A DNA stretch of 64,000 nucleotides from Ideonella benzenivorans (GTDB taxonomy: Bacteria > Pseudomonadota > Gammaproteobacteria > Burkholderiales > Burkholderiaceae_C), in contig NZ_JAGWCB010000010.1 of NCBI RefSeq assembly GCF_020387415.1, positions 620,001-684,000 on the forward strand. Reading direction: 5' to 3'. The notes below the pieces were generated by a model that was not told the DNA's origin, did no database searches, and was given only the letters and a program-made list of their open reading frames with translations. This document shows, one piece after another, positions 12,347-49,251 of the stretch. Each line of letters starts with the position of its first letter. Position 1 is the first letter of the stretch. Position numbers and translations under genes: made by a program.

Positions 12347-13045
12347 TCACTCGCCCGTCACCATCAGCCGGCCCAGGGCCGCGCTGGCGATGTCGCCCAC
12401 CTGTTCCAGGAACTCGGTGCCCATGTCGCTCTGGTAGCGCAGCGCGTCGGGCGAGCCCAGCACCAGCAGGCCGAAGCACTCGGCGGCCGACGGCCCCAGG
12501 CGCAGCGGCACCAGCGCCAGCGACTGGGCCGGCGTCGCGTCGCCCAGCCATTGCGCGGCCTCGAACTGGGCGTTCAGGCCGCAGTAGGGTTGCGACAGGC
12601 TGGCGGCGAAGGTCTTGATGTCCTCGCTGACGCCCTGGGCCCAGGGCAGGTGGGCAAAGGCCGGGGCCACGCCCCAGACGCGCACCGCCGCCTGCGGGAT
12701 CAGGAACTCGTGCTTGAGCTCGGCCACCAGCACCTCGCCCAGCATGGTGGCGCCGCGCGCCAGCATCACGGCGCAGGTCCAGCGGTGCATGCGCTCGGCG
12801 ATCAGCACGTTCTCCTGCCCGGCGCGGATCATCTCCATGATCTTGCGCTCCAGGCCCTTGATGCGCTCGCGCAGCATCTCCATCTGCCGCTCCTGCAGCG
12901 AGACGGCGCGCTGGCCATGCGGGCTGGTGAGCTGGATGCTGGCCAGCAGCTCGGCCTGGCGCTCGAAGAAGCCCGGGTTGTTGGCCAGGTAGTTGGCGAT
13001 GTCCTGTTCGGTGATGCCCTGCACCCCGTTCTCGTTGCTCGTCAC
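12347..13045 (-). CDS. DUF484 family protein
   Basis: A 232-residue protein of the DUF484 family, found almost always between dapF and xerC in proteobacteria. Its N-terminus has the family's [13 protein letters not shown], with Pro-His-Gly-Gln-Arg-Ala-Val-Ser-Leu-x-Glu-Arg-Gln further on. A coiled segment follows (about 50-75), then a GAF-like domain with Pro-Leu-Arg-Leu-Gly and [10 protein letters not shown]. Function is unknown; the GAF-like fold suggests ligand sensing. The start overlaps the dapF stop by four bases, indicating translational coupling. Confidence 0.92.
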
Positions 13046-13899
13046 AGCTCGATCTCTCCTTCAAAGACGGTCACCGCCGGACCGGTCATCATCACCGAGT
13101 GGCCCTCGCCGGCCCAGGTGATGGTCAGCACGCCGCCGCGGGTGTGCACGTCCACCGTGGCATCCAGCCAGCCCAGGCGAATGCCGGCCACCACCGCCGC
13201 GCAGGCGCCGGTGCCACAGGCCAGGGTCTCGCCCGCATCACGCTCATAGACACGCAACGCCACCTCGGTGCGCGAGCGCACCTGCAGAAAGCCGGCGTTG
13301 ACCTTGCGCGGAAAGCGCGGGTGGGCTTCGATCTTCGGACCCCAGTCGGCCACCGGCGCGGTGGCCACGTCGTCCACCCGCAGCACGGCGTGCGGGTTGC
13401 CCATCGACACCAGCGCCACCTCGGCCTGCACGCCACCGCCCAGGTCCAGCGGCCACAGCGGCATGCCGTTCACCTCGCGCGGCGTCAGCCCGGTGGGGTC
13501 GAAAGGCAGGTCGGCCGGCGCGAAGCGGGGCTGGTTCATGTCCACCGTGACCCGACCGTCGGGCTGCAGGGTCAGGGTCAGCAGGTTGTTGACGGTTTCC
13601 ACGCGGATGGTGGTCTTGTCGCTCAGCCCGTGGTCGTGCACATAGCGCACGAAGCAGCGCGAGCCATTGCCGCACTGCTCCACCTCGTCGCCGGTGGCGC
13701 CGTTGAAGATGCGGTAGCGGAAGTCGACCCCCGGCGCCTGCGCGGCCTCGACGACCAGGATCTGGTCGGCGCCCACGCCAAAGCGGCGGTCGCCCAGGAA
13801 CTGCAGCTGTTCCCGGCGCAGCGCCAGCGGCGCACGGGTGGCGTCCAGCACGACGAAGTCGTTGCCGGCACCGTGCATCTTGGTGAAGTGCAAACGCAT
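13042..13899 (-). CDS. dapF: Diaminopimelate epimerase
   Basis: A 285-residue PLP-independent epimerase that converts LL- to meso-diaminopimelate for lysine and peptidoglycan synthesis. The two catalytic cysteines are present, Cys76 in Gln-Cys-Gly-Asn-Gly-Ser-Arg-Cys and Cys228 in Ala-Cys-Gly-Thr-Gly-Ala-Cys. The start at 13899 gives [10 protein letters not shown]-x-Gly-Asn-Asp, where all orthologues start. No Shine-Dalgarno precedes it: the bases before ATG read AATCCCCCC. A GATAAT hexamer (minus strand, 13912-13907) lies so close that a transcript from it would be nearly leaderless. In the flagellum-free order I expect this gene to follow the two acyltransferases, so its old upstream context has probably been lost. 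Confidence 0.95.
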
Positions 13900-14060
13900 G
13901 GGGGGGATTATCAGACGGCGGGACAGCCCCCCCGACCCGGCGCCGCGCGCCCTTTTCGAATTTTTTTGAGTCCGGCATTTAAGGCCGCCGCCCCCCGCGC
14001 CGCCTAGTGAGGGGGAGGACGTCAATCAGAGGTCCTGAAACCCAACCAGGAGTGATCCCC

Positions 14061-14942
14061 ATGCTGAGCCTGAACACCAACCTCGCCGCGCTGTCCACCC
14101 AAAACTCGCTGTCCGCCAGCCAAAAGGCCCTGTCGACGTCCATGGCCCGCCTGGGCACGGGCTACCGCGTCAATTCCGCGATGGACGACGCCGCCGGCCT
14201 GCAAATCGCCACCCGCCTGAACGCCCAGACCCGCGGCATGGCCGTGGCCCAGAAGAACACCCAGAACGGCATCTCGATGATGCAAACCGCTGAAGGCGCC
14301 TTCAGCGAAGTGACCGACATCCTGCAGCGCATGAAGGATCTGGCGACCGAGGCCTACACCGCCTCGACCACGTCCACCGACCAGACCGCCATGCAGTCCG
14401 AGTTCGACGCCCTGGGCACCGAACTGGGCAACATCGTCAAGAACACCTCGTTCGGCGGCAAGCAGCTGTTCAGTAACGGCACGACGACCGACGGTTCCGG
14501 CGGCCTGCTGAGCACCGCCACGCTGACCTTCCAGATCGGCGCCTCGGCCGGCGAAACGATGAAGGTCGACACCCAGACCTCGCTGACCGCCGTGGCCACC
14601 GCCCTGGACAGCGCCAGCTCGAACTACGCCACCCCGGGCACCGCCGGCACCGAACTGACCGGCGGCTCAAACGCCATCATCACCACGCTGAGCACGGCCC
14701 TGGACGCCGTCGGCTCGTTCCGCTCCACGCTGGGCGCGGCCTCCAACCGCCTGGACCACGTCTACAACAACCTGGCCAACATGAGCACCAACACCTCGGC
14801 GGCCAAGGGTCGGATCATGGACGTGGACTACGCCACCGAGACCTCGAACATGACCTCCAAGCAAATGCTGCTGCAAGCCGGTACCTCGATGCTCAAGCAA
14901 TCGAACTCGATGTCGCAAATGGTCCTGTCGCTGATGCAGTGA
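14061..14942 (+). CDS. lafA: Flagellin, short lateral type
   Basis: A 293-residue filament subunit. It consists almost wholly of the conserved D0/D1 helices. The N-terminal part reads Asn-Thr-Asn-x-Ala-Ala-Leu-Ser-Thr-Gln, then Leu-Gly-Thr-Gly-Tyr-Arg-Val-Asn-Ser-Ala-x-Asp-Asp-Ala-Ala-Gly-Leu. The C-terminal part reads Asn-Arg-Leu-Asp-His-Val, Gly-Arg-Ile-Met-Asp-Val-Asp-Tyr-Ala-Thr-Glu and Met-Leu-Leu-Gln-Ala-Gly. The variable outer domain is reduced to about 60 Gly/Ser/Thr-rich residues, which would give a thin, plain filament. Size resembles lateral flagellins such as Vibrio LafA. ATG 14061 follows AGGAGTG, and a strong terminator ends the transcript. Sigma-28 control is expected, but I found no clear sigma-28 box in the upstream 160 bases. 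fliC would also be an acceptable name. Confidence 0.93.
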   Translation: MLSLNTNLAALSTQNSLSASQKALSTSMARLGTGYRVNSAMDDAAGLQIATRLNAQTRGMAVAQKNTQNGISMMQTAEGAFSEVTDILQRMKDLATEAYTASTTSTDQTAMQSEFDALGTELGNIVKNTSFGGKQLFSNGTTTDGSGGLLSTATLTFQIGASAGETMKVDTQTSLTAVATALDSASSNYATPGTAGTELTGGSNAIITTLSTALDAVGSFRSTLGAASNRLDHVYNNLANMSTNTSAAKGRIMDVDYATETSNMTSKQMLLQAGTSMLKQSNSMSQMVLSLMQ

Positions 14943-15119: not shown

Positions 15120-16187
15120 ATGGCACTGGACCGCGTCGCCCCCGTCAGCATGCCGCGCCCGGTGCTGGGCACCGGCAGCTGGGCCCCCCCCGCCTGGCGA
15201 GCCGGCGACCTGGTGCTGCTGCGCCTGGTGGGTTTTCAGGACGGCATGGCCTTGCTGCAAGGGGCCGAGGGCCGGGTCTGGCGCCTGCCGGGCTCGGACC
15301 CACGCCTGGCCAACCTGCCCCCGGGCACGCCGCTCAGTTGGACCGTGGTCAGCACCCGGCCCCAGCTGGCCTTGCAGCTGCAAAGCACGACCGCGACGCC
15401 CGGCGACGATGGCCCGCCCAGCACGGCGCCCCCTCAGGCCACCGCCGAGGCCCCCCCGACCGCCACCCCGGCCGCCGGCCCGGCGCTGAACGACCTGCGC
15501 CCCGATGCCGAGATCCTGCGGTTGATCCACCCCCTGAGCGCCGAGGCCACGCGGCTGGCCTTCCAGTGGCGCCGCCAGGTGCTGACCGGCACCGGCCGCG
15601 GCAGCGATGCGCGCGAGCGCTGGCGCCAGCGCGCCGCGGATGGCGCCCTGCCCTGGGGGCTGCTGGCCAGCTGGCTGTCGCAGGAGGAGGCGCCGGACGA
15701 AGACACGGCGCCGCCGCCCCGGTCACCACGCTTTGAACTGGGTCTGGGCCCTTTGCGCCTGGGCTTGCTGCTGGTCGAGCCCGACCCCGACCTGGATCGC
15801 GACGCGCCCCCACAGGTCCGCCCCCTGGCCCTGCGCGTGATGCTGAACCCGCCCGGCTGGGGGCCGGTGGTGCTGCAGATCGAACTGGGGCGCCCCGGGC
15901 TGCGCCTGCGGCTGGCCGCGGCCGAGGCCGCCACCTTGGCGCGGCTGCAGGCGCGGCTGCCGCAGCTGACCGGCCTGATCAGCCGCCTGGGGCTGACGCT
16001 GCAGGCCAGCCGGCTCGACCGGCTGGGCCCGGGCATGGACCTGTGGACGCCGCCGGCCGGCAGCGTGCGGCCAGCCCGCCTGCCGCCACTGCTGTTTCGC
16101 GTGGCGGCCGAGCTCTGCCTGGCACTGTGGGCGGACGAGCTGGTGCCCCCCGCCCCGCGGTCGCGGCGGGCTGCCTCAGCCCAGTGA
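15120..16187 (+). CDS. FliK-like protein of unknown role, next to flagellin
   Basis: A 355-residue protein that I do not recognise with certainty. The N-terminus (about 25-80) resembles the domain seen in some hook-length proteins (Leu-Val-Leu-Leu-Arg-Leu-Val, Gly-Arg-Val-Trp-Arg-Leu-Pro-Gly, Leu-Pro-Pro-Gly-Thr-Pro-Leu). Residues 85-125 are an Ala/Pro/Thr-rich linker. The C-terminal part (about 240-310) has the pattern of the FliK C-terminal domain: Gly-Pro-Val-Val-Leu-Gln-Ile-Glu-Leu, then Leu-Arg-Leu-Arg-Leu and an Ala/Leu helix Leu-Pro-Gln-Leu-Thr-Gly-Leu-Ile-Ser-Arg-Leu-Gly-Leu. A clearer FliK is encoded at 31174. It may be a second export-substrate or length-control protein. Its 3' end overlaps the convergent flhA by 12 bases. 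Confidence 0.7.
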   Translation: MALDRVAPVSMPRPVLGTGSWAPPAWRAGDLVLLRLVGFQDGMALLQGAEGRVWRLPGSDPRLANLPPGTPLSWTVVSTRPQLALQLQSTTATPGDDGPPSTAPPQATAEAPPTATPAAGPALNDLRPDAEILRLIHPLSAEATRLAFQWRRQVLTGTGRGSDARERWRQRAADGALPWGLLASWLSQEEAPDEDTAPPPRSPRFELGLGPLRLGLLLVEPDPDLDRDAPPQVRPLALRVMLNPPGWGPVVLQIELGRPGLRLRLAAAEAATLARLQARLPQLTGLISRLGLTLQASRLDRLGPGMDLWTPPAGSVRPARLPPLLFRVAAELCLALWADELVPPAPRSRRAASAQ

Positions 16188-18266
16188 GCCGACGATGCTG
16201 ACCTCGCGCTGCTCGGGCACCTCGTTGTAGGACAGCACACTCAGGCCCGGCGCGAACAGCCGCGCGTAGCGGGCCAGCAGCGGCCGGATCTGCGGCATCA
16301 CCAGCAGCACCGGCGCGGTGGCCTGCTGCTTCATCTGCTCGCGCACGGTGGGCATGTTCAGCTGCAGCTGCGACAGCAGCTGCGGATCGACCGGGAAGTT
16401 GTCCAGCGCCACCTTCTGGTTGCCCTGGCGGGCCTGGTTCAGCGCCCCCAGCAGCAGGCTTTCCAGCTCGCCGCTGAGGTTGAAGGCCTTGAGTTCGGCC
16501 GCCGGCCCGCACAGGCCGTTGACGATCTGGCGGCGCAGCGTGCAGCGCACCTCGGCGGCCAGCATCAGCGGGTCCTTGGTGGCCTCGGCGTTCTCCAGCA
16601 GCGTGGTGGCCACCGGCACGATGTCCTTGAGCGACACCCCTTCGGCCAGCAGCGCGCGGAAGACCTTGAGCAACTGGCTGTGGTTGAGCGCCTTCTCCAG
16701 CGCGGCCGCCAGCTTGGGCGCCAGCGTGGTCAGGCGCTCCAGCAGCGCGGCCACGTCGTCGTGGCGCAGCAGCTCGGGCAGCTGCTCGCGCACCAGCTTC
16801 GACAAGTGGGTGGCGATCACGCTGGGCACATCCACCACCTGGTAGCCCAGGCCCAGCGCATGGGCCTTGTCTTCCGGGGCGATCCAGACCACCGGCATGC
16901 GGTAGGCCGGGTCCACCGCCGGCAGGCCGTCCAGCTCGCCGTAGGTCTGCGGCGAAGGAATGGCCATCAGCCGGTCGGGGTGCACCTCGCCACCGGCCAG
17001 CGGCGTGCCGTTGAGCAGCACGCTGTACTGGGTGGGCTTGAGGCCCAGGTCGTCGCGCACGCCGATGGCCGGCAGCAGCAGGCCCATCTGCTCGCTGAGC
17101 GTCTGGCGCAAGCCCTTGACCCGCTGCGTCAGCGGCGCGCCGTGCGCCTGGTCGATCAGGCCCACCAGGCGGTAGCCCACGGTCAGGGTCAGCGGCTCGA
17201 CCACCGGCAGGCTGCGCCAGTCCAGCTCGGGCGGGCGCTCCACCACCAACGCCGCCTGCAGAGCCTGTTCGGGCTCGGCCACCGGCTTGGGCTCGCGCTG
17301 GTGCATGCGCCAGCCGGCAAAGGCCAGCAGCGCGGCAAAGGCCAGGAAGGTCATCCGCGGCATGCCGGGGATGCTGGCCAGCAGCGCCATCATGCCGGCG
17401 GCGCTGAACAGCACCGCCGGGTTGGCCAGCAGCTGCTCGCCGACCTGGGTCTCGAAGTCGCCCGAATCGCTGATGCGGGTGACGATGATGGCGGCGGCCG
17501 AGGACAGCAGCAGCGCCGGAATCTGGGCCACCAGGCCATCGCCGATGGTCAGCAGCGCGTACTGGCGGAAGGCATCGGAGAAGCTGAGGTCGTGCATCAG
17601 CGCGCCGATGGCCACGCCGCCCAGCATGTTGATCAGCAGGATCAGGATGCCGGCGACGGCGTCGCCGCGCACGAACTTGGAGGCGCCGTCCATCGCGCCG
17701 TAGAAGTCGGCCTCCATGCCCACCTCGCGGCGGCGGGCCTGGGCCTTCTCCTGGTTGATCAGGCCGGCGTTCAGGTCGGCGTCGATCGCCATCTGCTTGC
17801 CGGGCAGCGCATCCAGCGTGAAGCGGGCCGAGACCTCCGAGATGCGCTCCGCGCCCTTGGTGACCACCACGAAGTTGATGATCATCAGGATGACGAAGAC
17901 CACCAGGCCGACGACGAAGTTGCCGCCGATCACCACGTTGCCGAAGGCCTCGATCACATGGCCGGCCGCCTGCGTGCCCTCGTGGCCGTGCAACAGCACC
18001 ACCCGGGTGGAGGCCACGTTGAGCGTCAGCCGCATCAGCGTGGTGGCCAGGATGATGGTCGGGAAGACCGAGAAATCCAGCGGCCGCTTGGCGCTCACGC
18101 TGACCAGCACCACCACCATCGCCAGCACGATGTTGAACGTGAACAGCACGTCCAGCAGCGCCGGCGGCAGCGGCAGGATGATCATGGCCAGCACGGCCAT
18201 CAGGAACAGCGGCGTGGCCACCTTCTGGCGACGGACTTCGGCAAGGAATCGGCTCAGCGCGTTCAT
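16176..18266 (-). CDS. flhA: Flagellar export gate protein FlhA
   Basis: A 696-residue inner-membrane protein, the major component of the flagellar type III export gate that uses the proton gradient. The first 320 residues carry about eight membrane segments. Between them is the conserved cytoplasmic FHIPEP-type loop with Leu-Thr-Leu-Asn-Val-Ala-Ser-Thr-Arg, Phe-x-Leu-Asp-Ala-Leu-Pro-Gly-Lys-Gln-Met-Ala-Ile-Asp-Ala-Asp and Ala-Asp-Phe-Tyr-Gly-Ala-Met-Asp-Gly-Ala-Ser-Lys-Phe-Val. The remainder is the soluble domain that docks chaperone-substrate complexes. ATG 18266 overlaps the flhB stop (ATGA). It is the last gene of the minus-strand block that begins with fliM, the order seen in lateral flagellar loci. 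Confidence 0.97.
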   Translation of the reverse strand: MNALSRFLAEVRRQKVATPLFLMAVLAMIILPLPPALLDVLFTFNIVLAMVVVLVSVSAKRPLDFSVFPTIILATTLMRLTLNVASTRVVLLHGHEGTQAAGHVIEAFGNVVIGGNFVVGLVVFVILMIINFVVVTKGAERISEVSARFTLDALPGKQMAIDADLNAGLINQEKAQARRREVGMEADFYGAMDGASKFVRGDAVAGILILLINMLGGVAIGALMHDLSFSDAFRQYALLTIGDGLVAQIPALLLSSAAAIIVTRISDSGDFETQVGEQLLANPAVLFSAAGMMALLASIPGMPRMTFLAFAALLAFAGWRMHQREPKPVAEPEQALQAALVVERPPELDWRSLPVVEPLTLTVGYRLVGLIDQAHGAPLTQRVKGLRQTLSEQMGLLLPAIGVRDDLGLKPTQYSVLLNGTPLAGGEVHPDRLMAIPSPQTYGELDGLPAVDPAYRMPVVWIAPEDKAHALGLGYQVVDVPSVIATHLSKLVREQLPELLRHDDVAALLERLTTLAPKLAAALEKALNHSQLLKVFRALLAEGVSLKDIVPVATTLLENAEATKDPLMLAAEVRCTLRRQIVNGLCGPAAELKAFNLSGELESLLLGALNQARQGNQKVALDNFPVDPQLLSQLQLNMPTVREQMKQQATAPVLLVMPQIRPLLARYARLFAPGLSVLSYNEVPEQREVSIVGSLG

Positions 18267-19396
18267 GGCGTGATCTCGGAAAGGTGGGCTGGCACCGGGA
18301 TGTCGGTGGGCAGCACGGGCGCGGCGGGGCGGCGCCCCTGCTGGAAGGCCTGGAGTGCCAGCACGTGGTGCAGCACCAGTGCCACGGCCTTGTAGAGCGC
18401 GGCGGGGATCTGCTGCTGGACCTGGCTGGTGCGGTAGATGGCGCGCGCCAGCGGCGGGATCTCCAGCACCTCCACCCGGTGTTCCCGCGCCAGCTGGCGG
18501 ATGTAGAGGGCCATCTCGTCCACGCCCTTGGCCACCACGTAGGGGGCCTGGGCGCGCTTCTCGTCGTACTTCAGCGCAACGGCGTAGTGCTCGGGGTTGA
18601 CGATCACCACGTCCGCGGTGGGCACCGTCTTGCGCGCACCGCGGCGGGCCAGCGCCAGCTGCAGCTGGCGGATGCGCTGGCGCACCTCGGGCCGGCCCTC
18701 GTTGTTCTTGTGCTCTTCCTTGACTTCCTGCTTGCTCATGCGCTGCTGGCGCATGAACAGGAAGCGCTGCAGCGGCAGGTCGGCCAGCGCGAACAGCACG
18801 AAGACCATCGCCATCGACAGGATGCCGTCCATCATCAGCCCGGCCCCGACCTCGATGGCCTGGCTCAGGCTGAGCGACTGCAGGTGCAGCTCCGCGGGCA
18901 GCGCCGAGCGCACCACATGCCACAGCACCGCCAGCAGCACGCCCACCTTGAACAGCGACAGGCCGAACTCGCTGAAGTGTTTGCCCGAGACGAGCCGGCC
19001 CAGGTTGCTCAGCGGGTTGAAGCGTTCCAGCTTGGGCTGCAGGTTGCTGGTGCTGAAGATCCAGCCGCCCGGCCACAGCGAGCCCGCGATGATGGCCAGC
19101 GGAATCACCGCCAGCGGGGCCACCATCTTGACCAGCAGCAGCATGACCGCCGGAAAGACCAGCGAGCCCAGGTTCAGCAGGCTCTCGGGTCCGTCCAGCG
19201 GCGAGAGGATCAGCTGGAACAGGGCCCGGAAATCGGCCAGCCAGGACGGCATCAGCAGCATCACCAGCTTGATGCCCAGCAGCAGGCCGATGGCCGTGGC
19301 GACGTCGCGCGAGCGGACGACCTGGCCCTGCTCGCGCACCTTGCGCAGCTTCTGCTGCGAGGCCTGTTCGGTCTTGTCGCTGGCTTCATCGGCCAT
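18263..19396 (-). CDS. flhB: Flagellar export switch protein FlhB
   Basis: A 377-residue export-gate protein that switches specificity from hook to filament substrates. It has four membrane segments in the first 210 residues. Then comes the basic linker and the autocleavage site Asn267-Pro268-Glu269-His270, a NPEH form of the usual NPTH. The N-terminus Asp-Lys-Thr-Glu-x-Ala-Ser-Gln-Gln-Lys-Leu is typical of the family. The start overlaps the fliR stop by 11 bases and the stop overlaps the flhA start. Partner FliK proteins are encoded in this locus. Confidence 0.96.
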   Translation of the reverse strand: MADEASDKTEQASQQKLRKVREQGQVVRSRDVATAIGLLLGIKLVMLLMPSWLADFRALFQLILSPLDGPESLLNLGSLVFPAVMLLLVKMVAPLAVIPLAIIAGSLWPGGWIFSTSNLQPKLERFNPLSNLGRLVSGKHFSEFGLSLFKVGVLLAVLWHVVRSALPAELHLQSLSLSQAIEVGAGLMMDGILSMAMVFVLFALADLPLQRFLFMRQQRMSKQEVKEEHKNNEGRPEVRQRIRQLQLALARRGARKTVPTADVVIVNPEHYAVALKYDEKRAQAPYVVAKGVDEMALYIRQLAREHRVEVLEIPPLARAIYRTSQVQQQIPAALYKAVALVLHHVLALQAFQQGRRPAAPVLPTDIPVPAHLSEITP

Positions 19397-20183
19397 GCGC
19401 GGCCTCCTTGGCCTGCATCAGCCCCTGCTGCAGCAGGTCCAGCGTGTGCTGGGTCGCCTGCAGGTAATGCGCCGGCAGCGACGGGGCCAGCGCCCACAGC
19501 ATCAGCACGCCAAACAGCGTGACCACCGAGAAGCCGAGCGAGAACAGGTTCATCGTCGGCGCCACCCGGTTCAGAAAACCGAAGCCGATCTGCACCACCA
19601 GGGTGGAGAACACCAGCGGCAGCGCCAGCAGCATCGCGGCCGAGAAGACCCAGCCCACCTGCAGCACCAGCGTGTCCAGCGACAGCTGCCCCCAGCCGGC
19701 GCCGACCGGCCAGGCCTTGAAGCTGGCGCCCAGCACGCCGGTGATCACCAGGTGGCCGTCCACCGCGAAGAACACCAGGGTGCAGAGGATGAACAGCAGG
19801 TTGGACACCGCGTCCGACGCGCTGCCGTTGAGCGGGTCGTTCATCACCGCCATCGCCAGCCCCATCTGCGAGGAGGCCAGGTAGCCCAGCACCTGGAACA
19901 CCGCGATGGCCAGTTGCAAGGCCAGCCCGATGGCCAGGCCGATCACCGCCTGCTCCAGCGTGGCGACCACGCCCTGCAGGGACAGCGGGTCGATCGGCAC
20001 CGCGCCCTGGGCGGCCACCGGCATCAGGATCACGCCCAGCACCAGCGCCAGCAGGATGCGCACCGTCACCGGCACCAGGGCCTCGCCCAGCACGGGCGCC
20101 ATGCTGAGCACGGCCAGGCTGCGGCAGAACGGCCACCACAGGGCCGCGAGCAGCGCCGGCAGTTTCAGCAGCAGGGCGTCCAT
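19386..20183 (-). CDS. fliR: Flagellar export protein FliR
   Basis: A 265-residue integral membrane protein of the export gate, which forms the FliP-FliQ-FliR core in the centre of the MS ring. About six hydrophobic segments are visible. Family landmarks are the early Arg-Ser-Leu-Ala-Val-Leu-Ser-Met-Ala-Pro-Val-Leu-Gly, the central Gly-Leu-Ala-Met-Ala-Val-Met-Asn-Asp-Pro-Leu-Asn-Gly and Asn-Leu-Leu-Phe-Ile-Leu. It lies 13 bases after fliQ and overlaps flhB. Confidence 0.95.
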   Translation of the reverse strand: MDALLLKLPALLAALWWPFCRSLAVLSMAPVLGEALVPVTVRILLALVLGVILMPVAAQGAVPIDPLSLQGVVATLEQAVIGLAIGLALQLAIAVFQVLGYLASSQMGLAMAVMNDPLNGSASDAVSNLLFILCTLVFFAVDGHLVITGVLGASFKAWPVGAGWGQLSLDTLVLQVGWVFSAAMLLALPLVFSTLVVQIGFGFLNRVAPTMNLFSLGFSVVTLFGVLMLWALAPSLPAHYLQATQHTLDLLQQGLMQAKEAAHGR

Positions 20184-20196
20184 CGGCGGGCCGCCC

Positions 20197-20469: not shown

Positions 20470-20491
20470 GGGCGGCGTTCCTCGCGCGGGT

Positions 20492-40249: not shown

Positions 40250-40259
40250 GGCCGACGCG

Positions 40260-41021: not shown

Positions 41022-41810
41022 ATGAATCCCGCCCTCTGGATCAGCAAGACCGGTGTCCAGGCCCAGGACGCCAAGCTGCAGACCATCGCCAACAACCTGG
41101 CCAACGTCAACACCGTCGGCTTCAAGCGCGACCGCGTGATGTTCGAGGACCTGTTCTACCAGGTCGAATCGGCGCCGGGCGCGCAGCAGGCCGATGGCAC
41201 GCAGGCCCCCACCGGCGTGCAGCTGGGCACCGGCACCCGCGTGGTCGGCACGCAGAAGGTCTTCACCACCGGCAACCTGCAGACCACCGGCCAGAGCCTG
41301 GACGTGGCCATCGTCGGCAACGGCTTCCTGCAGGTGGCCCTGCCCAATGGCGATACCGCCTACACCCGCGCCGGCCAGCTGCAGGTCAACTCCGACGGCA
41401 AGCTGGTCAACGCCCAGGGCCTGGCCATCCAGCCCGAGATCACCATCCCGGCCAATGCCACGGCCATCAGCATCTCCGAGAGCGGCCTGGTGACTGCCAC
41501 CGTGGCCGGCAGCACCGCACCCAGCGAGCTGGGCCAGATCCAGCTGGCCGGCTTCATCAACCCGGCCGGCCTGCTGGCCCGCGGCGAGAACCTGTTCGAG
41601 GAGACCGTGGCCAGCGGCACGCCCACCACCGGCAACCCCGGCAGCGACGCGCTGGGCAAGCTCAAGCAGGGCGCGCTGGAAGGCTCCAACGTGCAGGTGG
41701 TGGAAGAGATGGTGGACATGATCGCCGCCCAGCGCACCTACGAGATGAACACCAAGGTGCTCTCCGCCGCCGACAACATGCTGCAGAACCTGGCCCAGGC
41801 CGCACGATGA
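41022..41810 (+). CDS. flgG: Flagellar distal rod protein FlgG
   Basis: A 262-residue distal rod subunit, the usual length. [13 protein letters not shown], Leu-Gly-Thr-Gly-Thr-Arg-Val and [16 protein letters not shown] are standard FlgG motifs. The stop overlaps the flgH start. Confidence 0.97.
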
Positions 41811-42481
41811 TGACCCGCCGTCTCCTGCTGTGGCTGGGCGCCCTCCCGGCCTGGATCCTGGGCGGCTGCGCGGTGATCGAGCCGCCGCGGCCGCCCGAGC
41901 TGAGCACCCCCGATCCCCTGCCGCTGGTGCAGGAGAAGCCGCGCCAGGGCTCGGCCGGCGGCGTCTTCGTGCCCGACAACGGCTGGTCGCTCACCTCGGA
42001 TGTGCGCACCTTCCACCCGGGCGACGTGCTGACCGTGATGCTCAACGAGACCACCCAGGCCAGCAAGAAGGCCGACACCAGCTTTGGCAAGAACAGCGAC
42101 GTGGCGGTGTCGCCCGCGGTGATCGCCGGCAAGTCGATCAAGACCGACATCGGCCTGACCAACAAGACCGACTTCTCCGGCACGGCCGCCAGCACGCAGC
42201 AGAACACGCTGCAGGGCGCGATCACCGTGGTCGTGCACGAGGTGCTGCCCAATGGCCTGCTGCGGGTGCAGGGCGAGAAGAGCCTGTACCTGAACCAGGG
42301 CGAGGAGATGATCCGCCTGGCCGGCTATGTGCGCGCCGCCGATGTGACGCCGGACAACCGGGTCTCGTCGCAGCGCCTGGCCAACGCCCGCATCGCCTAC
42401 GCCGGCAGCGGCGCCCTGGCCGATGCCAACAACGCCGGCTGGCTGACGCGCTTCTTCGCCAGCCCCTGGATGCCGTTCTGA
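41807..42481 (+). CDS. flgH: L-ring lipoprotein FlgH
   Basis: A 224-residue outer-membrane lipoprotein forming the L ring. The signal peptide ends in Leu-Gly-Gly-Cys (cysteine at residue 21). Mature motifs are [13 protein letters not shown], Asn-Gly-Leu-Leu-x-Val-x-Gly-Glu-Lys and Gly-x-Val-Arg-Ala-Ala-Asp-Val. A second ATG one codon downstream is an equally possible start. Confidence 0.95.
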
Positions 42482-42516
42482 CCCCCCGACACGACCGCTT
42501 GAGCACAGGCCCCACG

Positions 42517-43671
42517 ATGTCCGCTGCCCTCCGTTCCCTGTTCCTGCTGGCCGCCCTGGGCGGCCTGGCCCTGCCGGCGGCCCAGGCGGTCCCCCGGCCC
42601 ACCCACGCCACCCCGGCGACCGCGCTGCCGGCCGGCCAGGCCCTGCGCAACCTGGTCAGCATCGAAGGCCAGCGCGAGAACCAGCTGCTGGGCTACGGCC
42701 TGGTGGTCGGCCTGAACGGCAGCGGCGACAGCACGCAGGTGAAGTACGCCGGCCAGTCGGTCAACAACATGCTCAAGCAGTTCGGCGTCAAGCTGCCCGA
42801 CAACGTGGACGCCAAGTCCAAGAACGTCGCCACCGTGATGGTCAGCGCCAGCTTCCCACCGGGTTACCGCAAGGGCCAGACGATCGACATCACGGTGGCC
42901 TCGCTGGGCGATGCCAAGAGCCTGCGCGGCGGCATGCTGCTGCTCACCCCGATGCGGGCGGCCAACGGCGAGGTCTATGCGCTGGCCCAGGGCAACGTGG
43001 TGGTCGGCGGCGTCTCGGCCCAGGGCGCCAGCGGCTCCAGCGTGACGATCAACACCCCGACCTCGGGCCGGGTGCCCAACGGCGCCAGCATCGAGCGCGA
43101 GATCGAGACCGATTTCGACCAGGCCCCGACCGTGCGGCTGAGCCTGCGCCGGCCCCATTTCCAGACCGCGACCAACATCGTCGAGGCCATCAACCGCCGC
43201 TTCGGCCCGGTGGCCACGGCGCGTGACGCCACCAGCGTCGAGGTGCAGGCCCCGGCCGACCCGACCCAGCGCGTGGCCTTCGTCGCCGCGCTGGAGGCGA
43301 TGAGTGTGGACGCCGGCACCGCCACGCCGCGCGTGATCTTCAACTCCCGCACCGGCACGGTGGTCATCACCGAAGGGGTGCGGGTGCGGCCGGCTGCGGT
43401 CTCGCATGGCTCGCTCAAGGTGGTCATCTCGGAAGCCCCGCAGGTCAGCCAGCCCGCCCCGTTCAGCCAGGGCCAGACGCAGACCGTGCCGCGCTCGCAG
43501 GTCAGCGTCGAACAGGGCGGTGGCCGCATGTTCAAGTGGGCCCCGGGCGCCAGCCTGCAGTCCATCATCGACGCGGTCAACGCCACCGGCGCGACGCCCG
43601 ACGACATCATGTCCATCCTGCAGGCGCTGGACCAAGCCGGCGCGATCGACGGCACGCTGGAGGTGATCTGA
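42517..43671 (+). CDS. flgI: P-ring protein FlgI
   Basis: A 384-residue periplasmic P-ring subunit. A Sec signal (1-25, ending Ala-Gln-Ala) is followed by [17 protein letters not shown], nearly invariant in FlgI. Then come Ala-Ser-Leu-Gly-Asp-Ala-x-Ser-Leu-Arg-Gly-Gly and, near the end, [14 protein letters not shown]. ATG 42517 was chosen because it begins the signal peptide. The stop overlaps the flgJ start (TGATG). Confidence 0.96.
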
Positions 43672-44051
43672 TGAGCTCGCCCGACACCCCGATCACCACC
43701 GCCAGCCTGGGCGCCACCTCGCCCACCGACCCGCTGGGCCTGAACACCATCCGGCCCGCGCTGGACAGCGATGCCGCCACGGCCCAGGCCGCCCGCAAGG
43801 CCGCCCAGCAGTTCGAGAGCCACTTCATCGCCCAGATGCTGCACGACATGCGGCGCAGCAGCCAGGCCCTGTCCGACCCGGACGGCAGCCACCCCAGCCA
43901 GGGCCAGGAGATGCTGGACCTGGCCGACACGATGGTGGCCGACCAGCTGGCCACGCAGGGGGCCTTCGGGATCGCCGACCTGCTGCTGCGCCAGGTGCTG
44001 CCGCAGGACGCGACCCCGCCCACCGCGCCGAAACCGGCCAAGCCGGCTTAA
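43671..44051 (+). CDS. flgJ: Rod-cap protein FlgJ, N-terminal domain only
   Basis: A 126-residue protein equal to the rod-binding half of FlgJ. It shows Ala-Ala-Gln-Gln-Phe-Glu-Ser-His-Phe-Ile-Ala-Gln-Met-Leu, Gln-Gly-Gln-Glu-Met-Leu-Asp-Leu-Ala-Asp-Thr-Met and Gly-Ile-Ala-Asp-Leu-Leu, and stops before any glucosaminidase domain. The enzyme half is a separate gene at 36161. Single-domain FlgJ is known in several phyla, usually with a separate muramidase. Position between flgI and flgK is standard. Confidence 0.92.
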   Translation: MSSPDTPITTASLGATSPTDPLGLNTIRPALDSDAATAQAARKAAQQFESHFIAQMLHDMRRSSQALSDPDGSHPSQGQEMLDLADTMVADQLATQGAFGIADLLLRQVLPQDATPPTAPKPAKPA

Positions 44052-44117
44052 GCGGTCCGCCCCGGCGGTCGCCTTTCCCTGTTGAACCCCTCCTGAAACG
44101 ACACCGACGCCCGACCG

Positions 44118-45497
44118 ATGACCCTCCTGACGAATGCCCTCTCCGGTGCCGTGGCGGCGCAGACCGCGCTGAACACCACCAGCCAGAACATCGCCAACGT
44201 GATGACCGAGGGCTACACCCGCCAGGGCGTGATGCTGCGCTCGGCCCAGCCCTCGCGCAGCGGCACCGCCGCCGCGGGTGACGGCGTTTCGGTGCCCTCG
44301 CTGTTCCGCTTCAGCGACAGCTACAAGAACCTGCAGCTCTGGCAGTCCAACTCGACGCTGGGCCAGAACAGCGTGATCCAGCCCTACCTGACCCAGCTGG
44401 AACAGGTGATGGGCGACGACACGGCCAGCATCGCCGATGGCCTGGACAAGTTCTTCAACGCGCTCAACGCGGCCAGCGTGGAGCCCACCTCCAGTCCGCT
44501 GCGCGACAGCGTGCTCAACGCCGCCGACGCCCTGGCCCAGCGCTTCAACAGCCTGCGCCAGACCCTGTCCAGCCAGCAGCAGGCCGTGGCCCAGCAGCGC
44601 AAGGACCTGGTGGCCCAGACCAACACCTACACCGCCGACATCGCCAACCTGAACCAGCGCATCGCCGAAGCCAATGCCACCGGCGTCAACGCCTCGGGCC
44701 TGATCGACGAGCGCGACCAGAAGATCGACAAGCTGGCCTCGCTGGTGGGCGTGCAGGTCGTCACCCAGCCCGATGGCAGCGCCAATGTCTCGCTCAAGGG
44801 CGGCCAGCCGCTGGTGGTGGGACAGCAGGCCTCCACGCTGGCGGTCAACACCCTGCCCAACGGCAGCCAGCAGATGTCGCTGACCTTCGCCAGCGAGACC
44901 TTCGCGCTGGGCAGCAGCCCGCTGGGCGGCCAGTTGGGCGGGCTGGACACCTTCGAGCAAATCCAGCTCAAGCCCATGGTGCAGTCACTGCAGGACATGG
45001 CCAGCGGCCTGGCCACCGGGGTCAACAACACGCTGACCGCGGGCTATGCCATGAATGGCAGCGCCGGCAAGCCACTGTTCGTGATCGACACCACCAGCAC
45101 CTCGTCCCTGGTGACGATCGACCACAGCCTGCAGGCGGCCGACCTGGGTTTCTCGGGCAGCGCCACCGAGCCGGGCAACAGCGACCAGCTGCAGGCCCTG
45201 ATCGCGCTGAAGTCGCAGCCGGTCAGCATCACCGGCCTGGGCAATGTGCTGCTGGGCGATGTCTACACCCAGCTGGTCGGCAAGCTGGGCATGGCCAGCC
45301 AGGCCAACCAGACCGCCACGACCACGGCCCAGACCGTGCGCGACCAGGCCGATGCCAACTGGAAGTCCACCAGCGGCGTGAACGAGGACGAAGAGGCGGT
45401 GAACCTGATGCAGTACCAGCAGATGTACAACGCCAACATGAAGGTCATCTCGGTGGCCAACGAACTGTTCGACGCCATGTTGCAAATGGTGGGCTGA
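44118..45497 (+). CDS. flgK: Hook-filament junction protein FlgK (HAP1)
   Basis: A 459-residue junction protein. The N-terminus has Ala-Leu-Ser-Gly-Ala-Val-Ala-Ala-Gln-Thr-Ala-Leu-Asn-Thr-Thr-Ser-Gln-Asn-Ile-Ala, and the mid-part has Leu-Ile-Asp-Glu-Arg-Asp. The C-terminus has Ser-Gly-Val-Asn-x-Asp-Glu-Glu-Ala-Val-Asn-Leu, all FlgK features. It is about 90 residues shorter than E. coli FlgK, mostly in the variable outer domain. Confidence 0.95.
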   Translation: MTLLTNALSGAVAAQTALNTTSQNIANVMTEGYTRQGVMLRSAQPSRSGTAAAGDGVSVPSLFRFSDSYKNLQLWQSNSTLGQNSVIQPYLTQLEQVMGDDTASIADGLDKFFNALNAASVEPTSSPLRDSVLNAADALAQRFNSLRQTLSSQQQAVAQQRKDLVAQTNTYTADIANLNQRIAEANATGVNASGLIDERDQKIDKLASLVGVQVVTQPDGSANVSLKGGQPLVVGQQASTLAVNTLPNGSQQMSLTFASETFALGSSPLGGQLGGLDTFEQIQLKPMVQSLQDMASGLATGVNNTLTAGYAMNGSAGKPLFVIDTTSTSSLVTIDHSLQAADLGFSGSATEPGNSDQLQALIALKSQPVSITGLGNVLLGDVYTQLVGKLGMASQANQTATTTAQTVRDQADANWKSTSGVNEDEEAVNLMQYQQMYNANMKVISVANELFDAMLQMVG

Positions 45498-45511
45498 GCC
45501 GGAGAACGATG

Positions 45512-46423
45512 ATGCGCATTGCCAGCACCCAGTACCACACCACGATGAGCACGGCGCTGCAGCGGGCCCAGGCCAAGCTGGAGCAGACGATGGAGCAGAT
45601 GTCCAGCGGCGCGCGCATCCAGAAGCCCTCGGACGACCCGGTGACCAACGTGCGCCTGTCGCGCCTGACCCGCGAGGACGCGGCCACCACCCAGTACCGC
45701 GACAACATCGCCGCGCTGAAGACCCGGTTGAGCAACAGCGAAGCCCTGCTCGACAGCATGAACACCGACATGCAGGAGGTGCGCGACCTGATGGTGTGGG
45801 CGCCCAACGGCAGCAACACCTCCGAGGACGTGGCCGCCATGGCCAGCTCGCTGACCACGCTGCGCGACAGCCTGCTCTACACCAGCAACAGCAAGGACCA
45901 GGAAGGGCGCTACCTGTTCTCGGGCACCGCCTCGACCACCCCCACGGTCACCTACAACGCCGCCGCCGCGGTGGGTTCGCGCTACAGCTACACCGGCAAC
46001 GGCCAGACCCAGCAGGTGGTGGTGGGCAATGGCGTGACCCAGGCGGCCAACGTGGCCCTGCCGGAGGTCGCGCCCCTGCTCAACCAGCTCGACCAGATGA
46101 TCGCGACGCTGACCACGCCCGGCGTGAACGTCAACGACGCCGCCGTGCAGGCCCAGCTGACCACCGCGCTGAACCAGCTCGACAGCAGCATGGGCTCGGT
46201 CACCGCCCGCATCTCCAAGCTGGGCGGCGCGCAGAACATGCTCGACACCCTGGACACCGGCCATGCCAACGTGAGCCTGTCCAACCAGCAGGCTGCGCTG
46301 ACGCTGGGCAAGCTGGACTACAACCAGGCCGCGGTGCTGCTCAACGGCTACACCACGGCGGTCCAGGCGACGCAGAAAGCGTACGCCAAGGTCAGCGCAC
46401 TGTCGCTTTTCAACGCCTTGTGA
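45512..46423 (+). CDS. flgL: Hook-filament junction protein FlgL (HAP3)
   Basis: A 303-residue flagellin-like junction protein. Met-Arg-Ile-Ala-Ser-Thr-Gln-Tyr at the start, Met-Ser-Ser-Gly-Ala-Arg-Ile-Gln-Lys-Pro-Ser-Asp-Asp-Pro and the final Asn-Gly-Tyr-Thr-Thr-Ala-Val-Gln-Ala are typical. I chose the second of two adjacent ATG codons because GGAG then lies seven bases ahead and the N-terminus matches the family; ATG 45509 would add one residue. Confidence 0.94.
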   Translation: MRIASTQYHTTMSTALQRAQAKLEQTMEQMSSGARIQKPSDDPVTNVRLSRLTREDAATTQYRDNIAALKTRLSNSEALLDSMNTDMQEVRDLMVWAPNGSNTSEDVAAMASSLTTLRDSLLYTSNSKDQEGRYLFSGTASTTPTVTYNAAAAVGSRYSYTGNGQTQQVVVGNGVTQAANVALPEVAPLLNQLDQMIATLTTPGVNVNDAAVQAQLTTALNQLDSSMGSVTARISKLGGAQNMLDTLDTGHANVSLSNQQAALTLGKLDYNQAAVLLNGYTTAVQATQKAYAKVSALSLFNAL

Positions 46424-46451: not shown

Positions 46452-47498
46452 ATGCAGATCCGCTCGCTGGACCCTTCCCTCGCCCGGACGGCCCCAACGG
46501 CCGGCCCCCGCACGCAGCGCAGCAACGCGCCCGCGGGGGTCACCCCGCTGTCCGACCTTCGCGCGGCGCCCGACGCCCCGGTGGCCGGCCGCCGCACGCT
46601 GCCCGGCCGCGGCGTGGCCAGCTGGACCACGGGCTGGCAGCGCCAGGTCGCCGGTGCCCAGCAGAGCCTGGCCTACCTCGACGAACTCGGCCAGGGCCTG
46701 ACAGACTTCAAGACCGGCTTGAGCCGCACCCTGGCCCTGGGCACCGACGCCCCGGCCTCACTGCGCCAGCAACGCGATGCCGTGGCCAGCCTGTGGGACC
46801 AGCGCCGGGCCGCCACCGCCGGCACCCTGGACAGCCAGGGCCGCTGGGTGGCCGATGGCCAGGCCCGCCGCAACGTGCAGATCAAGGGCCTGGACCAGGC
46901 CAGCCTGCAAAGCCCGGAGCGCGAAGCCCTGACCTTCTCGGTCCCCGGGCTGCGCCAGCCGCTCACCCTGCTGCTGGGCGGCAGCCGGTCCAGTGCCGAG
47001 GCCTTGCGCGCCCTGGCACAGACCCTGGCCCCGGCCGAACTGCAGACCCAGGTCGGCGACGACGGCACGGTGTGGCTGTCGGTGGCCGAGGAACAGTGGC
47101 CTGCACTGCGCGACGGGCTGACCGTGCGCGGCGGCGGCCAGCGCTTCCCGGCCGGTCAACCCACCCGCCCCCGCCTGGAGACCCAGCCCGACATCCTGCA
47201 GGCCCGGGCCTGGAGCCTGGAGAGCACCGCCGACCAGCGCGCCACGCTGCAGGCCGTGGTGCGGGCCCAGAGCTGGGTGCAGCGCCAGACCGAGCGGCTG
47301 CGCCAGCGGCTGGCCGGCTGGGCGGACGAACTGGCCGCGGCGAACGCGCCCGACACGCCGCAGGCCCTGGCTCAGGCCGAACAGACCGCCCGCCAGCTGG
47401 GCGAGGCCGCCGGCTTCGGCGCCTGGACCACGCTGCTGCCAGCGCTGGGCACGCTGCGGCGCGAGCGGGTCGACGCGGTGCTGGCCCCGCGTCAGTAG
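46452..47498 (+). CDS. lafW: LafW-like flagellar protein after flgL
   Basis: A 348-residue protein of uncertain function. The first 60 residues are Pro/Ala/Arg-rich and unstructured. Residues 60-115 are helical with a heptad pattern (Gln-Arg-Gln-Val-Ala-Gly-Ala-Gln-Gln-Ser-Leu-Ala-Tyr-Leu). The middle is beta-rich with Val-Asn/Gln-Ile-Lys-Gly-Leu and Arg-Gln-Pro-Leu-Thr-Leu-Leu-Leu-Gly. A second helical pair (about 255-315) includes Gln-Arg-Gln-Thr-Glu-Arg-Leu. There is no Sec signal, so it may leave through the flagellar apparatus. Lateral (Flag-2) loci have lafW, a putative hook-associated protein, in exactly this place. The name is inferred from position and build. The stop overlaps the convergent acyltransferase by seven bases. 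Confidence 0.6.
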   Translation: MQIRSLDPSLARTAPTAGPRTQRSNAPAGVTPLSDLRAAPDAPVAGRRTLPGRGVASWTTGWQRQVAGAQQSLAYLDELGQGLTDFKTGLSRTLALGTDAPASLRQQRDAVASLWDQRRAATAGTLDSQGRWVADGQARRNVQIKGLDQASLQSPEREALTFSVPGLRQPLTLLLGGSRSSAEALRALAQTLAPAELQTQVGDDGTVWLSVAEEQWPALRDGLTVRGGGQRFPAGQPTRPRLETQPDILQARAWSLESTADQRATLQAVVRAQSWVQRQTERLRQRLAGWADELAAANAPDTPQALAQAEQTARQLGEAAGFGAWTTLLPALGTLRRERVDAVLAPRQ

Positions 47499-48382
47499 AG
47501 CTTGGCTTCGCCCTCGGGCCGGGTTTTGAAGCGCCGGTGCACCCAGTAGTACTGGGCCGGCTGCTCGCGGATGCGGGCTTCCAGCCAGCGGTTGAAGGCC
47601 GCCGCGGCCTGGGGCAGGTCGGGGTTGTCGAAGCCCTCGGGCGCCTCGCAGAAGCGCACCACATAGCCCTGGCCGCGCGGCAGCATGGTCACGACGATGG
47701 GCTGCACCAGCATGTTCATCGACTGCGCCATGCGCGCTGGCGCCAGCAGCGTGGCCGCCGGCACCCCGAAGAAGGGCACGAAGGCCGCATCCTTGGTGCC
47801 GAAGTCCATGTCCGGCAGGTTCACAAAGCCGGCGCCTTCCTTCTGGATGGCGCGGATCACCGGCCGGATGCCGGCCTGGCGGTCGAACAGCCGGGCCTGG
47901 CCGAAGCGGGCCCGGGCCTTCAGCAGGGCCTCGTCGAACACCGCGTTGCTCTGGCGCTGGTAGATGGTGATCGCCGGCTTGCTCTGCTTGAGCATCAGCG
48001 CCGGTGCGGTGTAGTCCAGCCCGACGAAGTGCGGCAGCAGCCACATCACCGGCCGGCCAGTGCGCTCGGCCAGGTGGATGTCGCCCTCGATGTGCACCAT
48101 GCGCAGCAGCCGCTGCTCGGAGGCGAACCACAGGTAGCTGTGCTCCAGAAAGCCCCGCGCCACGCAGCCGAAGTGCTCTCGGGCCAGCCGGCGGCGGGCG
48201 GCCTCGTCCAGTTCCGGAAAGCACAGGGCCAGGTTCTTCAACACCACGCGCCGGCGCGAACCGGCCAAGCACCACAGCAGCGCGCCCACGCCCTCCCCAA
48301 GGGCCGCCAGCAACGGCAGCGGCAACCAGTGCAGCAGCCACATCAGAAAAATGGCAGCCTGCGATCCCCAACGTTTGATCAT
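47492..48382 (-). CDS. LpxL/HtrB-type lysophospholipid acyltransferase
   Basis: A 296-residue inner-membrane acyltransferase of the LpxL family, likely adding a secondary acyl chain to lipid A. A membrane anchor (about 7-38) precedes the catalytic motif His-Phe-Val-Gly-Leu-Asp (HX4D). Asn-Leu-Pro-Asp-Met-Asp and the C-terminal Pro-Ala-Gln-Tyr-Tyr-Trp-Val-His-Arg-Arg-Phe-Lys-Thr-Arg-Pro are characteristic. I chose ATG 48382 because it lies inside the last codons of the upstream paralogue (ATGA-type coupling) and starts the anchor. In related genomes dapF follows this gene; here the flagellar locus intervenes. Confidence 0.92.
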   Translation of the reverse strand: MIKRWGSQAAIFLMWLLHWLPLPLLAALGEGVGALLWCLAGSRRRVVLKNLALCFPELDEAARRRLAREHFGCVARGFLEHSYLWFASEQRLLRMVHIEGDIHLAERTGRPVMWLLPHFVGLDYTAPALMLKQSKPAITIYQRQSNAVFDEALLKARARFGQARLFDRQAGIRPVIRAIQKEGAGFVNLPDMDFGTKDAAFVPFFGVPAATLLAPARMAQSMNMLVQPIVVTMLPRGQGYVVRFCEAPEGFDNPDLPQAAAAFNRWLEARIREQPAQYYWVHRRFKTRPEGEAKLY

Positions 48383-49251
48383 GCCCGGGATTGTCCCCCG
48401 GCCGGTGGCTCGGCCCGGCGGGGTTGTTTGAACCGGTTGTAGCCCCACAGGTACTGGGCCGGGCACTGGCCGATCACCCAGGCCATGGCCTCGTTGACGG
48501 CGGCAGCGCAAGCCTGCTCACCCGCCTCGGGGGGCGGCAGCTGGAACGGCCGGTAGTGGTTGATGAAGCCCCGGCCATGGGGCAGCCGCTCGGTCCAGGT
48601 CAGCAGGGGGATGCACCCGGTCTGCTGCACCAGGCGCGCCGCCAGCGTCATGGTGTAGGCCGACTGGCCGAAGAACGGCGCCCAGACGCCCTGCCCTTCG
48701 GGCGGTACCTGGTCGGGCAACAGGCCCACCGTTTCGCCCTTGCGCAGCGCGCGCAGCATCTGCCGCACCCCCGACAGGTTGGCCGGCGCGGCCTGCATGC
48801 CCGGCGCGGTGCGGGAGTAGGTTTGCCACTGGGCGATGCGGGCCTGGCGGGCCGGCCGGTACAGCACCGTGACCGGCTGACGGTGGCCATAGCGCTCGGC
48901 ATAGCCGCGGGCGGCGAACTCGAACGCCCCCAGGTGGGGCGTGAGCAGCAACAGCCCCTTGCCGGCGGCGATGGCCTGCTCCACCAGGGCCTCGTTGTCC
49001 CACTGCAGGTAGGGTGCCAGCCGGCGATCGGGCGTGCGGAACCAGAGCCAGGGCACCTCGGCCGACATGCGGCCGGCATGGGCCACGGCGGCGCGGCGCT
49101 GGGCCGGTGTCAGGCCGGCACGCGCGGCATTGGCCGCCAGCCGGCGGCGGTAGGTGGGCGAGGCAGCCCACACGATCCAGCCCAGCAGGGCGCCCGCGAA
49201 CTGCACCAGCCAAAGGGGCCAATAAGCGACCCAACGCAGCAACAACATCAT
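48379..49251 (-). CDS. Second LpxL-type lysophospholipid acyltransferase (HX4E)
   Basis: A 290-residue paralogue of the downstream acyltransferase. The N-terminal anchor is at about residues 4-30. The catalytic motif is His-Leu-Gly-Ala-Phe-Glu, with Glu in place of Asp, a known variant. Leu-Leu-Pro-Asp-Gln-Val-Pro-Pro and the C-terminal Pro-Ala-Gln-Tyr-Leu-Trp-Gly-Tyr-Asn-Arg-Phe-Lys match the family. The two enzymes probably act on lipid A one after the other, with different acyl donors or positions. It is divergent from metK, with 190 bases between. Confidence 0.92.
   Translation of the reverse strand: MMLLLRWVAYWPLWLVQFAGALLGWIVWAASPTYRRRLAANAARAGLTPAQRRAAVAHAGRMSAEVPWLWFRTPDRRLAPYLQWDNEALVEQAIAAGKGLLLLTPHLGAFEFAARGYAERYGHRQPVTVLYRPARQARIAQWQTYSRTAPGMQAAPANLSGVRQMLRALRKGETVGLLPDQVPPEGQGVWAPFFGQSAYTMTLAARLVQQTGCIPLLTWTERLPHGRGFINHYRPFQLPPPEAGEQACAAAVNEAMAWVIGQCPAQYLWGYNRFKQPRRAEPPAGGQSRA

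Follow-up and report, generated by a model that had tools for sequence, protein, structure and literature searches.

How did a complete set of flagellar genes come to lie inside a row of housekeeping genes in Ideonella benzenivorans, how long has it been there, and what controls it? These questions are raised by a 64-kb stretch (the window, G000:C9:620001-684000) of the 4.49 Mb genome G000, in which a flagellar block separates two lpxL genes from dapF, DUF484 and xerC. We propose that a complete lateral (Flag-2) cluster, with lafA and lafW at its ends, was inserted between lpxL1 and dapF in some ancestor inside the genus and so split the row metK, lpxL2-lpxL1-dapF-DUF484-xerC. The block would then have descended vertically along the line leading to G000 and its relative G006, and been lost cleanly in the ancestor of two other relatives, G001 and G009. 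It would lack the gene for the regulator LafK, and its fliE operon would be led by a cyclic di-GMP (c-di-GMP) riboswitch. The explanation as a whole is given a probability of about 88%.

Insertion into a conserved gene row

The region around dapF was compared in 40 of 59 other genomes, drawn from a search for dapF homologues. DUF484 lies within 200 bp of dapF in 38/40. A same-strand lpxL gene lies within 1 kb of dapF in 23/40, and within 100 bp in 18; L025 has two lpxL copies, the scored one 1.7 kb from dapF and the nearer one about 0.8 kb. No lpxL gene falls inside the stretch in 14/40. The flagellar block stands beside dapF instead in 2/40, namely G006 and G010. An association of lpxL and dapF this frequent exceeds what chance would give.

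Within the genus, lpxL2-lpxL1-dapF-DUF484 was found in 13/13 members without the block, as the original prediction expected of empty sites, and no flagellar match was found in these 13 stretches. The lpxL-dapF gap ranges from 26 to 960 bp and is 26-82 bp in 11 of them, the wider gaps at the same site being those of G008 (L019, 656 bp) and G015 (L011, 960 bp). The nearest relatives have gaps of 30 bp (G009) and 55 bp (G001). The row is adjoined by metK in 11/13 genomes (L009 ends too early, and metK was not found in L013, from G004) and by xerC in 12/13 (not found in L005). Relatives without the block thus do have lpxL beside dapF, and the block is not common to all close relatives. The same row, which the original prediction gave for other Burkholderiales, occurs with small deviations in other families of the order (L028, L030, L032, L035, L037, L039), but several members of the same family (e.g. 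L021-L024) have dapF-DUF484-xerC without lpxL alongside. By family we mean what we take to be Burkholderiaceae in the GTDB sense; its named members include Roseateles terrae (G269, also G061 and L042), a Methylibium sp. (G089, G062, L043) and Pseudorhodoferax soli (G425, G073, L055).

Because more distant genomes show lpxL beside dapF, the empty state is ancestral. The insertion is real: the flagellar block entered a conserved housekeeping row as one unit. In the window it runs from the lafA start at 14061 to 47498, and lpxL and dapF are 33.6 kb apart. The dapF start was placed at 13899, an ATG that lies roughly where alignment begins for the majority of homologues of a longer 327-aa open reading frame (ORF). 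The predicted fine structure of the flanks was confirmed. On the left, where all genes are on the minus strand, dapF shares 4 bases with DUF484, and a 4-base gap separates DUF484 from xerC. On the right, the coupled minus-strand lpxL genes likewise share 4 bases and are divergent from metK, and the final block gene converges on the 3' end of lpxL1 with a seven-base overlap (47492-47498).

The block is a supernumerary system of lateral type. The original prediction took it for the whole flagellar system, which does not hold: a second cluster on contig C13 of G000 contains flgB-K, fliA, flhAB, fliFGINPQR, fliD and three flagellin genes (the stretch ends within the third), and its FlhA is 48% identical to the lateral FlhA. 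The lateral assignment, made from sequence comparison, follows from the presence of LafW and from the closeness of FlhA to lateral systems. LafW, LafK and LafZ have been described as marks of flag-2 (PMC6993521, PMC7526173). A family profile of orf348, the last gene of the block, matched only LafW (2.4e-35) among 40 E. coli flag-2 proteins, and flgL adjoins the LafW homologue in 15/15 genomes where one was found (35 searched, 18 with lateral FlhA). Carriers of lateral FlhA without a LafW match are G010, which is fragmented, G066 and G068. LafZ had no match in the window and none in the gamma loci compared either. Namesakes in the flag-2 locus of E. coli NZ_CP076706 were matched by 35/39 block proteins, the others being orf355, fliT, flgM and the glucosaminidase; what tempers the assignment is that this comparison used flag-2 proteins alone, with flag-1 proteins left out. 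A structural model of LafW is of low confidence (predicted local distance difference test 67.5, from 4 sequences), and its best matches in the PDB are flagellins (E 7e-6, with a template modelling score of 0.27), so that a "filament-like" LafW is a lead only.

Descent and loss of the block

Lateral FlhA is carried by 3/16 genomes of the genus (G000, G006 and G010) and by 23/399 sampled genomes of the family, in 15/141 genera. G006 shares the insertion site at both ends; for G010 the match was seen at the left end. In 17 of the 22 carriers from other genera of the family, dapF is on a different contig; in the remaining 5 it shares the contig but at a distance of more than 1.5 Mb. The block was not seen at the lpxL-dapF site in any of these 22, with draft contigs leaving G136 and G168 undecided. 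Identity of lateral FlhA outside the genus shows no significant correlation with that of gyrB (rho 0.21, p 0.35, 22 genomes), and transfer of the lateral cluster between genera is likely, as judged from these sequences.

Age was estimated from identity at fourfold sites between G000 and G006, which is 80.6% for the block (n=5458), 77.9% for the flanks (n=1215) and 77.2% for the primary flagellar genes (n=2602). The matching divergence of the three agrees with vertical descent from the common ancestor of G000 and G006. GC content and tetranucleotide use of the two block halves are within the genome range, towards its lower end (tetranucleotide z-correlation 0.913 and 0.889, against 0.783-0.941 with a median of 0.927 in 22 background stretches). 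A recent foreign acquisition was ruled out by this in-range composition together with a block divergence equal to that of flanks and primary flagellar genes. The prediction that the system was acquired in one block stands as to a single unit entering a conserved row, with empty sites in existence, and needs correction as to time, the gain being old.

The tree of gyrB+rpoB joins G006 with G001 and G009 to the exclusion of G000 (support 100/100), and a clade of G000 and G006 is rejected by the approximately unbiased (AU) test (p 4.8e-13). Because G001 and G009 nest with carrier G006 apart from carrier G000, their empty sites are most likely secondary, the block having been lost from both; the sites of these nearest relatives cannot serve as the ancestral state for which they had been taken. 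No relic or scar of the block was seen by eye in the gaps of empty sites, those of G001 and G009 included. The locus thereby documents, with a direction in time, how a whole second flagellum was gained and lost, and both junctions and the empty sites can be read. Separately, no FlhA of any kind was found in G007 or G009 (G009 is only 90% complete), and both may have lost flagella altogether.

Could the block instead be native to the site across the genus or family and simply have been lost elsewhere, with no insertion at all? Loss does occur, as G001 and G009 indicate, and divergence of lateral FlhA within the genus is near that of primary FlhA (89% vs 88.5% for G010). Yet lpxL stands beside dapF in other genera and in other families of the order, and in no carrier from another genus was the cluster observed here; the idea was already disfavoured and we consider it very improbable. 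We are just as sceptical that G000 and G006 gained the block independently, or recently from each other, and that G001 and G009 never had it. The block's sporadic occurrence in genus and family would suit such a history, and two gains need no more steps than one gain plus one loss, but G000 and G006 share the site and both ends, and the block has diverged between them much as flanks and primary genes have.

Some results weigh against the proposed explanation. Fourfold identity between G000 and G006 is higher for gyrB (86) and rpoB (84) than for the block; these genes are a biased yardstick because they are highly expressed. The junctions share no more than random stretches do, the longest shared word being 9 bases direct and 8 inverted (control mean 8.8). 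Other traces of mobility were looked for as well. No tRNA was found in the window, and gene annotation, which covered about 10 to 50.6 kb, revealed neither an integrase nor a transposase, housekeeping xerC aside. FlhA matches were found in 473 plasmid records, four of them at 60-80% identity (E. coli 3 and Vibrio 1 among the matches listed), and viral contigs gave 0 exact matches of the aptamer core. The mode of movement we can only infer.

G010 fits this history least well. Four of its flagellins lie directly upstream of dapF (L004), its 89% FlhA is on a separate short contig, and its right junction is not assembled. A grouping of G010 and the G000 clade is rejected by the AU test on gyrB+rpoB (p 0.0016), while dapF+DUF484 weakly joins it there (88/81; alternative not rejected, p 0.22). 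For G010 we give even odds to a within-genus transfer of the block with its left flank, through homologous recombination at flanks common to donor and recipient, in place of an ancestral gain followed by several losses, at least six when counted on the gyrB+rpoB and primary FlhA trees. The conflict between gyrB+rpoB and dapF+DUF484 favours such a transfer, as does metK on the opposite flank, which groups G010 with G005 (84/94). Neither flank tree is decisive, however (for metK the alternative is not rejected, p 0.34), and divergence of the block between G000 and G010 is like that of the genome (75.0% vs 68-78%). The tree of primary FlhA also sets G010 beside the G000 clade with no block to account for the placement (its support values are unreadable after re-rooting).

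The leader of the fliE operon

The fliM-fliE gap of the window contains a full c-di-GMP-I riboswitch aptamer on the plus strand. Searching 65 genome handles, three of them duplicates, with Rfam RF01051 found the riboswitch in 32 handles, equivalent to 29 distinct genomes. The family carriers number 25 (23 from the 399-genome sample plus G006 and G010). The riboswitch is 4.5-4.9 kb from FlhA in 19/25, and a further carrier, G168, has it on a short contig with fliM on one side and fliE on the other, giving 20/25 in all. The Roseateles terrae locus (L042) is one of those with the riboswitch. In 18 other leaders fliM points away and fliE lies downstream on the aptamer strand, at about 352-688 nucleotides (nt) against 523 in the window (start codons estimated), so that the aptamer is on the fliE strand in 19/19 leaders. 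The aptamer core is nearly invariant across these 19 genomes from 13 genera; the remaining leader drifts and its downstream part is variable. With the Rfam structure 97.1% of cells pair, compared with 92.2% in shuffles and 26-43% in slid structures. Double-sided changes occur in 25 cells vs 9.6 in shuffles, and fall in 5 pairs, 4 of them in one variable helix. A c-di-GMP riboswitch ahead of a lateral flagellar fliE was not found described among the open-licence papers listed. Copies of c-di-GMP-I away from Flag-2 were also observed, in non-carriers G003, G011, G016 and G026 and in several carriers, up to six per genome in all.

The same gap in gamma Flag-2 loci, between lfiM and lfiE, holds the gene for LafK. 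A tblastn search with LafK gave matches in gamma loci L048-L052 and none in the window or in beta loci L041-L047, L053 and L055 (L041 stops short of the gap and L046 is without fliE), nor in 20 further carrier stretches and the G010 contig. A riboswitch in the LafK slot is a part that a specialist would not expect. Matches to the sigma54 site number 35 over the block at ≤2 mismatches; a single one falls within the fliM-fliE gap, at the aptamer edge. In Pseudorhodoferax the gap is occupied by a gene encoding BetR and response-regulator domains (L055, 4649-5548, minus strand).

Upstream of the riboswitch, a CRP-type dyad was found in 13/19 leaders where 0.055 is expected per set, a pattern picked after viewing the alignment of related genomes. 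It starts 84-86 nt before the aptamer in 11 of the 13 and 78 nt before it in the window. Its function is a lead drawn from sequence. In 10/19 leaders the hexamer TACAGT precedes the aptamer by 8 nt, and in many of these a TTG-type hexamer lies another 16-18 nt upstream; the match in the window is weaker.

The fliE operon would thus have a leader of about 0.5 kb, headed by the riboswitch and set behind a weak sigma70-like promoter and the CRP-type dyad. Transcription would start near the aptamer, and c-di-GMP would directly determine the synthesis or the use of the long fliE-to-motB transcript. A class I aptamer likewise heads a leader of about 0.5 kb of an early flagellar operon in Clostridioides difficile, where the Cd1 riboswitch precedes the flgB operon and binding of c-di-GMP is reported to end transcription early (PMC5386303). 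The Cd1 case concerns a different operon, flagellum and phylum, and the leader in the window has no demonstrated terminator. By this analogy the riboswitch is probably an OFF switch and the second flagellum is built at low c-di-GMP; high c-di-GMP, as in a biofilm, would shut off the genes for the basal body, export, sigma28 and stator. The flagellum would serve beside the primary one, probably on surfaces or in viscous media.

Several results stand against this reading. Scanning the leader in the window for terminators gave 2 terminator-like sites on both strands vs 1.0 expected, with a single weak hairpin-T site on the strand of fliE, and thus no clear expression platform; no element sequestering the ribosome site could be shown there, and a sigma70 consensus scan found no promoter. 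The riboswitch is missing near FlhA in 4/25 carriers, all of one genus (G122, G227, G368, G425). The G010 assembly breaks inside fliM, and no G010 contig has a match. Loci of Chromobacterium, Massilia, Pandoraea, Rugamonas and Pseudorhodoferax have no copy between fliM and fliE, and none was found in loci L048-L052, L054 and L244 or in the Ralstonia locus, the fliE end of which is outside the stretch; Ralstonia (G065) and a Rhodoferax metagenome-assembled genome (G060) have copies on other contigs. The LafK search, moreover, covered locus stretches and not whole genomes. From the lack of a clear terminator or promoter in the window and the variable sequence 3' of the aptamer, it could be argued that the Rfam match is relictual or serves a different transcript, and that FlhDC or a CRP-type factor controls the operon by itself. 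This we think unlikely, as the core has stayed nearly invariant, with compensatory changes, while the rest of the leader drifted, and its orientation follows fliE in every leader.

We therefore keep to direct gating of the fliE operon by c-di-GMP as the reading suggested by these alignments, and lean towards a broader one: that in one family branch the lateral flagellum swapped the LafK/sigma54 master switch for a c-di-GMP riboswitch, often with an upstream CRP-type operator. The whole flagellum would then be a self-contained, c-di-GMP-gated cassette inserted and deleted as a block, and the fliM-fliE gap a swappable control slot of Flag-2, filled in a related genus by the BetR-response regulator. 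Direct sensing of c-di-GMP in an operon leader is a concrete candidate answer to how Flag-2 systems without LafK are controlled and, if true, ties a surface flagellum to the biofilm messenger.

Gene content and known lateral systems

The genes of the block and its flanks were identified with NCBIfam and Pfam profiles and by comparison with the loci of relatives (Table 1). No profile or namesake matched fliT, which was named from its position and its G006 homologue.

Table 1. Features of the block and its flanks, in window coordinates.
Feature	Position	Strand	Evidence
xerC, left flank	11371-12342	-	NCBIfam TIGR02224, E 2e-94, 316 bits, under its cut-off of 335
DUF484 gene, left flank	12347-13045	-	Pfam PF04340, E 6e-25
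dapF, left flank; left junction just upstream of its start	13042-13899	-	TIGR00652, E 8e-80; comparison with empty sites
lafA, lateral flagellin, left end of block	14061-14942	+	top NCBIfam match LafA, 325.6 bits, under cut-off of 365; 49% to E. coli LafA
orf355, FliK-like C-terminal domain	15120-16187	+	Pfam Flg_hook, E 1.8e-6, 28.1 bits, just under cut-off of 29.8; 65% in G006
flhA flhB fliR fliQ fliP fliN fliM (lfhAB-lfiRQPNM), fliM start approximate	16176-22547	-	best matches are E. coli flag-2 namesakes (FlhA 61%, FliM 24%)
CRP-type dyad CGTGC-N6-TCACG, upstream of riboswitch	22736-22751	+	pattern in 13/19 leaders
c-di-GMP-I riboswitch aptamer, upstream of fliE	22814-22903	+	Rfam RF01051, 58.6 bits, cut-off 35; covariation
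fliE-fliF-fliG-fliH-fliI-fliJ	23427-28966	+	Pfam, E. coli flag-2 comparison; fliE start 23427 by homology
fliD fliS fliT fliK fliL fliA (sigma28) motA motB (lafBCDEFSTU), fliD start approximate	28998-35448	+	E. coli flag-2 comparison
flgM, flgN, glucosaminidase (FlgJ-type)	35474-36898	+	Pfam
flgA	36895-37716	-	E. coli flag-2 comparison
flgB to flgL, flgB start approximate	37616-46423	+	NCBIfam, Pfam, E. coli flag-2 comparison
rod-binding FlgJ-like gene inside flgB-flgL	~43668-44051	+	profiles and comparison as for flgB-flgL
orf348, LafW homologue, right end of block	46452-47498	+	family profile vs E. coli LafW, 2.4e-35
lpxL1, right flank	47492-48382	-	NCBIfam PRK06946, E 1e-81, under its cut-off
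lpxL2, right flank	48379-49251	-	NCBIfam PRK08905, above cut-off
metK	49443-50630	+	TIGR01034, above cut-off

The window has one lateral flagellin gene; tandem copies number 3 in G006 (L003, 10511-13441) and 4 in G010 (L004, 95-4030). Between lafA and flhA, orf355, with its weak FliK C-terminal domain, encodes a second hook-length-like protein besides the regular fliK (31174-32373). Outside the block, a SAH (S-adenosylhomocysteine) riboswitch (RF01057, 64.7 bits) was found at 53335-53416 on the plus strand, just ahead of an ORF starting at 53510, an ordinary arrangement, presumably of the type that precedes ahcY. GC content falls to 0.51 in the first 2000 bases of the window, vs about 0.69 elsewhere, possibly an island edge, and the ORF at 876-1688 (minus strand) in this stretch had no Pfam match.

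The block resembles the Flag-2 system of E. coli and other Enterobacterales and the lateral systems of Vibrio and Aeromonas in its lfh, lfi, lfg and laf content, in its divergent lfiM/lfiE centre, in having LafW after lfgL, and in being a second system beside a primary one (PMC6993521, PMC7526173). Unlike E. coli Flag-2, the block in the window gave no LafK or LafZ match, its fliD-to-motB genes (cluster 3) follow directly after fliJ, and lafA stands at the flhA end with lafW at the other. The site differs as well, being beside dapF in the window and in the rayT-dinB interval in the E. coli locus. The putative lateral flagella reported for Burkholderia dolosa and further beta-proteobacteria are alike as beta-type lateral systems beside a polar one, with a flagellin that does not adjoin fliD; in B. 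dolosa, unlike here, lafA adjoins fliM, and the main text of that report does not contain the words riboswitch, c-di-GMP or LafK (PMC5773237). It reports lafA homologues in many beta-proteobacteria, argues for an old presence with loss and leaves regulation open (PMC5773237). Wholesale flagellar transfers have also been described, including that of a lateral system to a beta-proteobacterium (PMC8042155).

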